Below are positions 36,777 through 40,768 of a stretch of DNA of 64,000 nt, one piece after another. The position numbers and the translations under genes were made by a program. Within the stretch, counting starts at the first letter, position 1; every line of letters starts with the position of its first letter. The notes beneath the pieces were generated by a model. It saw only the letters and a list, made by a program, of their open reading frames with translations, made no database searches and was not told the origin of the DNA. The DNA comes from an uncultured Candidatus Pelagibacter sp. (GTDB taxonomy: Bacteria; Pseudomonadota; Alphaproteobacteria; Pelagibacterales; Pelagibacteraceae): positions 1-64,000 of the forward strand of contig CAJQTI010000006.1 in assembly GCA_905618915.1 (NCBI GenBank). The letters are read 5' to 3'.

Positions 36777-37850
36777 ATGAATAAAAAACCCATAATTCTA
36801 GGAATTGAATCAAGCTGTGATGAGACAGCTGCCTCTATCGTAACTGAAAATGAGCAAGGTATGCCAACAATTTTATCAAGTATTGTTTCAAGTCAGGTAG
36901 ATGTTCATAAAGAATTTGGCGGCGTTGTGCCTGAACTTGCAGCAAGGTCTCATATGGAAAAAATTGATTTGATCACTAAAAAAGCGCTTGATGAAAGTAG
37001 AATAAAAATGGAGGACCTGGATGCTATAGCAGCAACTGCAGGACCTGGTCTTGTAGTCTGTCTATCTGTTGGTTTAAGTTTTGGGAAAGCAATGGCCTCT
37101 TCTCTCAATAAACCTTTTATAGCTGTTAACCATTTAGAAGGACATGCGTTAAGCCCAAAACTAAATTCTGAATTAAACTATCCTTACTTATTACTTTTAA
37201 TTTCTGGAGGCCATACTCAATTTTTAAGTGTTCAGGGGTTAGGAAATTATAAAAGATTAGGAACAACTATTGATGATGCTGTAGGTGAAGCATTTGATAA
37301 AACGGCAAAGTTATTAGGAATAGAGTTTCCTGGTGGGCCCCAAATTGAGGTATATGCAAAAAAAGGTGATCCCAATAAATATGAATTACCCAAGCCAATT
37401 TTTCATAAAGGGGGCTGTAATTTATCATTTGCTGGTTTAAAGACTGCTGTTTTAAAAATATCAAAACAAATAAAAACTGAACAAGAAAAATATGATCTTG
37501 CAGCATCTTTTCAAAAAACAATTGAAAAGATACTATATAAAAAAAGTAAAATTGCTTTTGAAGAATTTAAAAAAATGAACACAACAAATAAAAATAAATT
37601 TGTAGTTGCGGGTGGTGTTGCTGCAAACAAAAGAATTAGAGAGGTTCTAACTAATCTTTGTAAAGAAGAAGATTTTGAAGCAATATTTCCACCTATTAAT
37701 TTATGTGGAGATAATGCAGCAATGATTGCAATGGTTGGGTTGGAAAAATTTAAAATAAAACAGTTTAGCGAATTAGATAGTCCCGCAAAACCTAGGTGGC
37801 CCTTAGATGCAGATGCTGCATTTTTAAAAGGTGCTGGTGTTAAATTATAA
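36777..37850 (+). CDS. tsaD: tRNA t6A threonylcarbamoyltransferase TsaD
   Basis: GIESSCDETAASIV, NHLEGHALSPKL, SGGHTQFL. Confidence 0.97.
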   Translation: MNKKPIILGIESSCDETAASIVTENEQGMPTILSSIVSSQVDVHKEFGGVVPELAARSHMEKIDLITKKALDESRIKMEDLDAIAATAGPGLVVCLSVGLSFGKAMASSLNKPFIAVNHLEGHALSPKLNSELNYPYLLLLISGGHTQFLSVQGLGNYKRLGTTIDDAVGEAFDKTAKLLGIEFPGGPQIEVYAKKGDPNKYELPKPIFHKGGCNLSFAGLKTAVLKISKQIKTEQEKYDLAASFQKTIEKILYKKSKIAFEEFKKMNTTNKNKFVVAGGVAANKRIREVLTNLCKEEDFEAIFPPINLCGDNAAMIAMVGLEKFKIKQFSELDSPAKPRWPLDADAAFLKGAGVKL

Positions 37851-37855
37851 ATTAA

Positions 37856-38398
37856 TTATCTAAATTTTGGTCCAGACATCCAAATAGCTAGGGTATGTCG
37901 TTTACCTGAAATAATTTTATTTACTTTATGATTGGTGAATGCAGGAAAAATAATTGCACTGCCGGGTGTATTGAATTCTTTGCAAATAATTTCATTTCCC
38001 CTGAATAAAACTAGCTCTCCTCCTTCATAAGATTCTTCTGATAAATTCAATAAAGCTGTAAGCTTAATATCTCTTACTGTATCTCTTGGAACAGCATCAA
38101 TATGCCAACTATATTCTGCTCCTTCCTCATAAGAATTATAATTTAATTTTTTTAGAGAAGTTAATGGATGAAGATCAAAGCCAAAAAAATTATTATTTGC
38201 TGTTAAACAAAAATCAATAAAAGGATTAATATATTTTTGCACTTTTCCTAAATTTACAAATTTGACATCTGAAGTTTTGTGAGCATCGGCCGCATAATCA
38301 TCTTTTCCCTCAATAAGATTTGACTTAATAATAGCGTTAATATCTTTGATTTGTTCTTTATTATAAATATTCATGGATGAATAATTGGCTGCTCTCAT
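37856..38398 (-). CDS. 2OG-Fe(II) oxygenase
   Basis: YSWHIDAVP (HxD) and distal His (FTNHKVNKIISGKRHTLAIW). Confidence 0.85.
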   Translation of the reverse strand: MRAANYSSMNIYNKEQIKDINAIIKSNLIEGKDDYAADAHKTSDVKFVNLGKVQKYINPFIDFCLTANNNFFGFDLHPLTSLKKLNYNSYEEGAEYSWHIDAVPRDTVRDIKLTALLNLSEESYEGGELVLFRGNEIICKEFNTPGSAIIFPAFTNHKVNKIISGKRHTLAIWMSGPKFR

Positions 38399-38501
38399 AA
38401 TAATAAAATTATCAATTTTTAAGTATCTTGCAATCAGTTAATTTAAAATATTTGAGTAAGTTGATTTACAAAAAATTACCCCTCACATGTTTTATAAAAA
38501 T

Positions 38502-38575
38502 GAAGTATAATAAAATAATTATAATTAAGGAATAAATGAATTACTGGTTAATGAAACCAAAGCTTATTATACTTC
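38502..38575. other. 12-bp perfect inverted repeat bracketing an EVE-like gene-start fragment
   Basis: GAAGTATAATAA (38502-38513) and TTATTATACTTC (38564-38575). Confidence 0.6.
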
Positions 38576-38580
38576 GATAA
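38536..38580 (+). pseudogene. Truncated EVE-domain gene 5' remnant (MNYWLMKPKLIILR*)
   Basis: AAGGA 4 nt upstream of the ATG; 23/28 nt match to the start of the EVE gene at 40355. Confidence 0.5.
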
Positions 38581-38674
38581 ACCCCTACCAATTTCTGCTA
38601 ACCTTTACATTATCTTTACAATTAAAAATGATGATTAAAGCTAATTATAATCAGCAAATGTATGGTACGATTTT

Positions 38675-39127
38675 TTAATAAATTCTATCATGATCGGATT
38701 TTACACGACGCAACGGTATAGAAGATTCTACCGATGAAACACCCTCAATAACAGTAAGTTTTTTTGTTAAAAAGTTTTCAAATTCTTCCACATCCTTTAC
38801 GGCAATTCTAATAAGATAATCTTTGGTTCCTGTCATTAACCAGCATTCAACTACTTCTGGAAAACTCAATATTTTTTCCTCAAATTTATCAAAGTTTTTA
38901 GACTGTTGTCTTTCTAAGCTTATAAAAATAAAAGCTGGAAACTTGTAACCAAAAGAATTTTCATCAATATTTACTGTATAATTCTTAATTATACCTTTTG
39001 CTTCAAGTTGATTAATTCTTCTTGCGGTAGGGGCAATACTTAAATTTATCTGGTCACTTATTGTTTGAAGCGTAGCTTTGCTATTATTTTTTAGTATTTT
39101 TATTATTTTTTTATCAAGCAAATCCAT
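38675..39127 (-). CDS. Lrp/AsnC family transcriptional regulator
   Basis: DLLDKKIIKILKNNSKATLQTISDQINLSIAPTARRINQLEAKGII. Confidence 0.95.
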   Translation of the reverse strand: MDLLDKKIIKILKNNSKATLQTISDQINLSIAPTARRINQLEAKGIIKNYTVNIDENSFGYKFPAFIFISLERQQSKNFDKFEEKILSFPEVVECWLMTGTKDYLIRIAVKDVEEFENFLTKKLTVIEGVSSVESSIPLRRVKSDHDRIY

Positions 39128-39227: not shown

Positions 39228-40214
39228 ATGTATTTTCACATCATGAATAATTTTGATCCTTTGTGGGCTCCCATTCTTACGCACTACGAATTAGCCGATA
39301 ATTTAAGATTAGATAAAGCACTTATAAAAAAACACATGAAGTGGTTAGAGCCAAGTGTAAAACAATTCTTGGTATGCGGAACTACAGGGGATGGTTGGAT
39401 ATTAAGTGATAAATTAATAAACAATTGGCTTGAAATATTAACTGAAAAAAATTTTTTAACTGATCAAAACAAAATATTATTTGGTGCATTTGGTAATACG
39501 ACCAAAGAAGTTTTGCATAGGGCTAAGCTTATTGAAGATTATTTAACTGATCATACGTGTGAAGCAAGCTTTTTTGGATTAACTTTATGTGCACCAGTAA
39601 ATGAGAAAATAACTCAAAACGAAATTATTAAACATTTTGAAAATATTATTGAAAATACATTGTTACCAATTTCCATCTATCAATTACCACAAGTTGTTAA
39701 GTGTGAGATTAAACCAGAAACTTTAAAGTATTTAAAAGATAAATTTAAAAAGAGAATTGTTTTATTTAAAGATACAAGTGATGAAGACAAAGTTATTGAT
39801 TCAAAAATTGATTTTGGAGATTTAAAATTTTTAAGAGGTGCAGAGAAAAACTATTTTAACCATATTAAACCAAGAGGTAAATATGATGGATTTTTATTAA
39901 GCACAGCAAATTGTTTTGGCAAGGTTTTGAGAGAAATATTAAAAGAAGTAGAGGAAAATAATCTTGAAAAAGCAGAAAATCTTTCAAAAAAGCTAAGCGA
40001 CATTATTAGAGTATCTTTTGATAAAGGAGAAAAGTTGAATTTTGGAAATCCTTTTTCAAATGTAAATAAAGCTTTTCTACATGTAATATTTAATAAAGAA
40101 AAATTTAATTATCTTAATTGCAAAACATGCTTTAAGAATAATATACCTGGTGATTTTTTAACATATGCAAATGAATTGCTTGTTGAAAACAAATTAATAA
40201 ATTCATTAAAATAA
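39228..40214 (+). CDS. Dihydrodipicolinate synthase/N-acetylneuraminate lyase family protein
   Basis: FLVCGTTGDGWILS, PISIYQLPQ, LFKDTSDED (Schiff-base Lys candidate); start may be the internal Met of HIMNNFDP. Confidence 0.85.
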   Translation: MYFHIMNNFDPLWAPILTHYELADNLRLDKALIKKHMKWLEPSVKQFLVCGTTGDGWILSDKLINNWLEILTEKNFLTDQNKILFGAFGNTTKEVLHRAKLIEDYLTDHTCEASFFGLTLCAPVNEKITQNEIIKHFENIIENTLLPISIYQLPQVVKCEIKPETLKYLKDKFKKRIVLFKDTSDEDKVIDSKIDFGDLKFLRGAEKNYFNHIKPRGKYDGFLLSTANCFGKVLREILKEVEENNLEKAENLSKKLSDIIRVSFDKGEKLNFGNPFSNVNKAFLHVIFNKEKFNYLNCKTCFKNNIPGDFLTYANELLVENKLINSLK

Positions 40215-40318
40215 TAAATCAATAATAATCATTGTTTGGCGCTTATTAATACATACTATCGTATGGTACATTGTATGATACATGTTTGTATTAATTGGTG
40301 TAAAACATAATGCTAACT

Positions 40319-40354
40319 ATGAATCAAGTAAGTAAACACTGGGAAAACAATTAG
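40319..40354 (+). other. 11-codon upstream ORF (MNQVSKHWENN*) abutting the EVE start codon
   Basis: Stop TAG directly followed by the ATG of the EVE gene; 14-nt identity with the start of the DUF4212 gene at 43567. Confidence 0.4.
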
Positions 40355-40768
40355 ATGCAGTATTGGTTAATGAAATCAGAGCCTGATGTTTGGTCAATTG
40401 ATCAACAAAAAAAAGCTGGCGCTAAGGGTGCTCCTTGGGATGGAGTAAGAAATTATCAAGCAGCTAAAAATTTAAGAGGAATGAAAAAAGGGGACCTTTG
40501 TTTTTTTTATCACTCAAATATAGGTAAAGAAATTGTTGGAATAGTTGAGGTTATTAAAGAAGCTTTCTTAGATAAAACTGACAAAGATGGACGATTTGTA
40601 GCTGTTCAAGTAAAGTTTAAAGAAAAATTAAAAAAAAGTGTAACTCTTGAAGAGGTTAAAAAAACTAAGTCTCTTAGCCATTTATCACTTATTAGACAAA
40701 GCAGATTATCTGTTATGCCCATAGACTCTAAAAGCTGGAAAATTTTAAATAAGATGAGTAGTATTTAA
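40355..40768 (+). CDS. EVE domain protein
   Basis: MQYWLMKSEPDVWSIDQ, GAPWDGVRNYQAAKNLRGMKKGDLCFFYHSN. Confidence 0.95.
   Translation: MQYWLMKSEPDVWSIDQQKKAGAKGAPWDGVRNYQAAKNLRGMKKGDLCFFYHSNIGKEIVGIVEVIKEAFLDKTDKDGRFVAVQVKFKEKLKKSVTLEEVKKTKSLSHLSLIRQSRLSVMPIDSKSWKILNKMSSI

Follow-up and report, generated by a model that had tools for sequence, protein, structure and literature searches.

Genomic islands specific for dusA encode their own integrase and use the dusA gene as their target (Farrugia et al. 2015, PMC4482086). CIMEs and microCIMEs are bounded by attL and attR, are devoid of recombination genes, measure 1.2-13 kb, or 130-220 bp when they carry no cargo, and are found in tandem beside their target (PMC7563491). 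They are decay products of ICEs and IMEs integrated at the same site (PMC7563491). Tycheposons, as described in PMC10872708, are 4-200 kb long, are bordered by tRNA genes and carry a tyrosine recombinase.

The window, i.e. the whole stretch of 64,000 nucleotides that was analysed, very probably contains, from ~38545 to ~40375, a complete 1.8-kb non-autonomous (CIME-like) integrative element, whose family has its attachment site at the 5' end of an EVE-domain gene in Pelagibacteraceae (SAR11) and would be served by a tyrosine recombinase in trans. Like the dusA islands (PMC4482086), the EVE elements are inserted in the 5' end of a conserved gene for an RNA-related protein, supply a replacement 5' end and leave imperfect direct repeats of ~21-28 bp. 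Unlike them, they are 0.2-5 kb long, have no intact integrase and use an EVE-domain gene, so that neither the target nor the own integrase of the dusA islands is found. The resemblance to CIMEs extends to the att boundaries, the lack of recombination and transfer genes, the sizes and the tandem habit, and includes a cargo-less unit of ~216 bp in G241 (L096). The EVE units differ in carrying cargo only; of an ICE, IME or phage at the EVE site from which they might descend, a 99-aa integrase-like fragment in G062 was the sole trace found. Tycheposons (PMC10872708) and the marine phage satellites (PICMIs, PMC10803314) are likewise cargo-carrying or small integrative elements of marine bacteria, but where tycheposons have a tRNA border and a tyrosine recombinase, the EVE elements use a protein gene (the EVE start in every case) and have no intact recombinase. 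Integron gene cassettes, each with one attC beside a resident intI, differ from the EVE units, which have two ends and their own displaced EVE start; most carriers of EVE elements have no second dedicated integrase.

The earlier note had pointed to a near-duplicate pair of EVE gene starts, and the pair is real: ATGAATTACTGGTTAATGAAACCAAAGC at 38536-38563 and ATGCAGTATTGGTTAATGAAATCAGAGC at 40355-40382 are identical at 23 of 28 positions. A chance match is ruled out by 300 Markov-1 sequences of 64 kb, among which the top score was 21/28 and none reached 23. In the whole assembly a degenerate EVE-start pattern occurs at two places only, both of them in the window; a third copy is absent. Two genes lie between the starts, as had been stated: that of an Lrp/AsnC-family regulator (38675-39127, minus strand; PF01037, 1.3e-21) and that of an aldolase of the DHDPS/N-acetylneuraminate lyase family (39228-40214, plus strand; PF00701, 1.8e-20). 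The sequence GTATGGTAC, correctly reported on both flanks at 38660 and 40261, is one unit of a direct repeat that has an equivalent position in homologous elements. The downstream start opens the working EVE-domain gene (40355-40768, plus strand; PF01878, 2.7e-45), the target of integration, whose first codons are probably derived from the element. The upstream start had been described as a second, truncated EVE gene. It is a genuine EVE start, but only the first 7 EVE codons are present, fused to a conserved non-EVE block; the displaced start thus opens a 14-codon mini-ORF, MNYWLMKPKLIILR-stop (38536-38580, plus strand).

The locus lacking the Lrp/DHDPS pair, which the earlier note had suggested for comparison, is found in five relatives (G028, G024, G111, G057 and G045). 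In these, an uninterrupted EVE gene directly follows tsaD, which ends in TAATG, the ATG of which is the EVE start; the EVE gene of G028 is 95% identical to that of the window. In the window, tsaD lies upstream of the site at 36777-37850 (plus strand). Two further genomes (G102 and G050) have the order tsaD, oxygenase, EVE and are also devoid of the pair. Among 77 genomes of the genus, picked because one contig contained both tsaD and an EVE hit, the gap between the two genes is at most 40 bp in 26 and exceeds 1.2 kb in 36, with a maximum of 8.3 kb; many other tsaD-EVE inserts do not have these element ends. An empty site in relatives and an insert bounded on either side by direct repeats are marks of a site-specific integrative element, and a further mark is the reuse of the site by elements with differing cargo. 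The proposal that a cassette at the EVE 5' end gave the gene a new start and left the old one behind is supported by the empty sites and by ~20 elements with the same layout of displaced and new starts. The two findings named beforehand as speaking against it did not materialize: the arrangement is not common to all relatives and the match is not due to chance. What goes beyond that proposal is the recurrent use of the integration site, the finding that GTATGGTAC is one of the element's terminal repeats, and the right end left by an older element just upstream.

In G061 and G109, tsaD is directly followed by an EVE start, which after seven codons passes into a block homologous to that of the window, and the real EVE gene lies 1.6-2.4 kb further on. 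The left-block pattern was detected in 5 genera of the family, in 7 of the 297 genomes. A scan of 84,980 species, each represented by one genome, returned 16 contigs, titled Pelagibacteraceae (15) or Alphaproteobacteria (1), all with the same gene order. Altogether, this site is occupied in several genera of Pelagibacteraceae, by ~20 elements with homologous ends besides that of the window. Once duplicates were removed, 21 elements were aligned, and every left block joins the EVE start at the same codon; the remnant of the displaced start has no ATG in 2 of the 21. The real EVE gene, or a second element, is located 0.15-5 kb downstream of the left end wherever the contig extends far enough.

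Counted from tsaD, an element consists of the displaced start with the core, a left block of ~115 bp, paired direct repeats of ~12 bp (e.g. TGTAGTACGTAGTGTAGTAC), the cargo, a second set of repeats, the right block and the new ATG. The core, TGGTT-N5-AACCA, is an inverted repeat; its EVE side reads TGGTT-N5-AATC. The left ends align nearly without gaps over ~115 bp, with a conservation of ~0.9 or higher in most columns, which drops past the repeats, where the cargo begins. The right-hand repeats stand ~93 bp before the EVE ATG, at a fixed distance among the right ends, and the right block ends in GGAGAAACAATTAG followed by the new ATG, by which it supplies a ribosome-binding site and a new start to the EVE gene. 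The left and right repeats are more alike within an element than between elements (mean 2.7 versus 5.3 mismatches; 13 elements, permutation p 1e-5). Judged by sequence, this layout would be that expected of an attP, in which one recombinase binds both arms and the core sites lie between them. No known RNA from Rfam matched the conserved blocks, and a promoter scan of the window's right end gave a score no better than those of shuffled sequences.

All the parts of such an element are present on the plus strand of the window. The attL core, TGGTT-AATGA-AACCA, occupies 38545-38559, and the exchange probably took place within the 12 bp TGGTTAATGAAA (38545-38556), also contained in attR. The conserved left block (38557-38659) follows; from the core to the repeats, 99 of 116 columns equal the consensus of the 20 other elements. 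The left terminal repeat has one unit, GTATGGTAC (38660-38668), and a decayed second unit, because of which the element may be immobile today. Past the cargo, the right terminal repeats GTATGGTAC-ATT-GTATGATAC (40261-40281) are followed by the right block (40282-40354), which ends in GGGAAAACAATTAG, a Shine-Dalgarno-like sequence for the new EVE start. The right end, with 61 of 93 columns equal to the consensus, is therefore the more diverged of the two. The attR core TGGTTAATGAAATCA (40364-40378) falls just inside the working EVE gene, in its first codons.

Several variants were noticed at the same site. A second type of right end (..TATCCTATAAAATATGGCAAGATCCTAT) precedes EVE in G094, G015 and G001 (L105/L147, L134 and L066) and suggests that the EVE site has received a further family of elements or an exchange that has since decayed. 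A short motif, TTCTGTTGCCAGGTGC, and its variants occur beside the left repeats in L110, L111 and L117 and directly after tsaD in G015 (start of L134). A displaced EVE start is also present in L070 and L141 (G014 and G095), but the left sequence behind it is another one (..AAAATTAAAAA..) and the cargo gene is unrelated, which suggests a decayed or different element.

Insertions at the site accumulate in tandem. Two complete elements follow one another in G066, and L095 has a second right end upstream of the displaced start. In the window, the stretch 38484-38515 (plus strand), just before the displaced start, matches the right-block consensus CACGTGTTTTATAAAAATGGCGTAAAATGAAA at 27 of 32 positions (the best of 200 Markov sequences reached 25); its first 19 nucleotides contain one mismatch, a match of which none is expected in shuffles. 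As this decayed right end precedes the displaced start, the 2OG-Fe(II) oxygenase gene before it (37856-38398, minus strand; PF13640), which has the same position in G102 and G050, is probably the cargo of an older element that has lost its left end.

Cargo also passes between lineages. The autotransporter cargo of L110, L111 and L117 is 96-98% identical at the DNA level, as against 71-74% for EVE and 77-81% for acs of the hosts. The corresponding values are 94% versus 67-74% for the cargo and flanks of L097/L108 and 86% versus 72-78% for those of L100/L112. The cargo being far more alike than the flanking genes, its transfer is much more recent than the divergence of the hosts.

The cargo was named by profile matches, and restriction-modification genes are common in it: a type ISP enzyme of 1619 aa (G066), a Dcm-type methylase with Vsr and a nuclease (L095), a type I-like methylase with specificity subunits (L115) and a Dcm-type methylase (L069). 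In L119 and L120, DNA methylase-like genes were identified solely by visual inspection. A Pif1-like helicase is found in L108, the autotransporters of L110, L111 and L117 have a C-type lectin domain, and further cargo consists of membrane proteins without an assigned identity. A family of ~111-aa proteins (MQQELFDYRRD...SENQIA.YYD), encoded by the first cargo gene in L069, L098, L119 and L120 (e.g. L120:393-728) alongside DNA methylases, is possibly a regulator or partner of restriction systems. Inserts of 6-7 kb at the EVE site (L063:8511-13414 and L066:6939-13966) contain genes that, read by eye, belong to nonulosonic-acid-type sugar synthesis, a surface glycan cargo.

The cargo of the window, in which the Lrp/AsnC regulator and the aldolase of the DHDPS family are divergent, is metabolic. 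The aldolase scores below all NCBIfam equivalog cut-offs and is therefore named by family only. In G242, G461 and G106, relatives of both genes are found together elsewhere in the genome (83% identity for Lrp, 62-65% for DHDPS). A foreign origin could not be upheld in view of these relatives; the cargo, judging from them, looks captured from within SAR11 and is not a defence system.

No intact integrase was found in any element read. The 6-kb insert of G062 contains, near its right end, a 99-aa ORF that resembles the N-terminal region of tyrosine integrases (~33%, E 6e-5). The integrases in question are 545-570 aa long and reside in 7-9-kb satellite-like elements of the same bacterial family, three of which occur in IMG/VR as contigs with terminal repeats. 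As helpers of the EVE elements these integrases are not supported: the satellite of G437 adjoins an apparent tRNA-Leu gene and the repeats of the satellites differ. The satellite-like elements of Pelagibacteraceae (L103:3657-10175, L104:558-8864, L172, L173 and L174) are of note themselves, as they encode a tyrosine integrase of 545-581 aa, a primase/helicase-like protein and a PDDEXK-like nuclease; the G437 copy is the one beside the tRNA gene, and the IMG/VR copies have direct terminal repeats. A PF00589 scan of the carriers gave, with few exceptions, almost nothing besides one ~320-aa recombinase, also present in non-carriers; such scans may overlook divergent integrases, and the satellite integrases score weakly on PF00589. 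Pattern scans of IMG/VR viral contigs for attP, the left end, the right end and the repeats gave 0 hits. The lone IMG/VR hit to a shorter pattern (L121) sits in an unrelated phage contig and is a chance match, as is the one match of the left end in phage records.

The following sequence of events is proposed. A tyrosine recombinase would join attP, with the core TTGGTT-N5-AACCAA and two arms ending in direct-repeat binding sites, to the EVE start, TTGGTT-N5-AATCAG. The old EVE start would end up beside the left arm as attL (the start at 38536), and attR (the start at 40355) would place an element-borne ribosome-binding site and start codon ahead of the EVE body, so that the EVE gene would be cut off from tsaD, not destroyed, and its expression presumably restored. 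Elements of this kind would carry cargo only, be it metabolic genes, surface proteins or candidate defence genes, those for restriction-modification among them. The elements read have no intact integrase and the ~320-aa recombinase of the carriers is shared by non-carriers; the integrase would therefore come in trans, the candidate sources being phages, phage satellites and larger relatives. Later elements would stack in tandem next to EVE, as in the window.

Homologous recombination between conserved flanks, as in a replacement flexible genomic island, might dispense with a site-specific recombinase altogether, the displaced starts then arising by unequal crossing-over. SAR11 flexible islands are known, homologous exchange has been cited for such islands (PMC7318151), and the lack of an integrase in the elements agrees with it. 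So do mismatches in the 5-bp overlap, which is unlike between attL and attR in several elements (ACTTA versus AATGA in L067; also L100, L107, L108 and L112): they are at odds with strict tyrosine recombination in a single clean event and need later mutation, homologous exchange or a tandem history. Homologous exchange, however, would make neither a new 115-bp block with repeats joined at one EVE codon nor the inverted repeat of the core, and it would not yield tandem units that each have a left and a right end; the flanks diverge by 19-29% between hosts with 97% identical cargo. It is unlikely as the origin of the elements and may still spread those already in place.

Movement by a resident Xer-type recombinase, as with IMEX elements, would agree with the single ~320-aa PF00589 recombinase found in nearly all genomes examined, carriers included. 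The repeated arm-type sites at both ends suggest instead a recombinase with an arm-binding domain, the G062 fragment at a right end resembles an integrase N-terminus, and the site lies in EVE and not, presumably, in a dif site, all of which makes this explanation a shade less probable still. A reading of the 38536 start that has nothing to do with mobile DNA, either as a conserved leader peptide or as a decayed duplicate of the EVE gene, is highly improbable. The 14-codon ORF, MKYWLLKPTLVIHR-stop, is indeed well preserved in carriers, but it is missing from empty-site relatives, the second half of the peptide belongs to the left block of the element, and no EVE body follows the start; the empty sites contradict both forms of the idea. 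The ORF (38536-38580 in the window, and its homologues), the stop of which lies inside the element in most carriers, may simply cap a broken reading frame.

No description of the EVE 5' end as an integration site was found in the literature searched, most subscription journals lying outside its reach. The integrative element of the window and its relatives represent, in our judgement, a known type of element whose target is new, and the group that harbours them is of great ecological importance. The defined site and recognisable ends make the elements countable in any SAR11 genome or read set, and through these ends the attP junction and, via the arm repeats, the missing recombinase become searchable. 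Tentatively, and at a little under even odds, SAR11 may share a stock of defence and surface cassettes that have no integrase and are traded through one docking site, the EVE start, by a recombinase that is present only for a time, e.g. brought in by a phage or satellite; the end repeats, which co-vary, would then reflect several recombinase specificities directed at one target.
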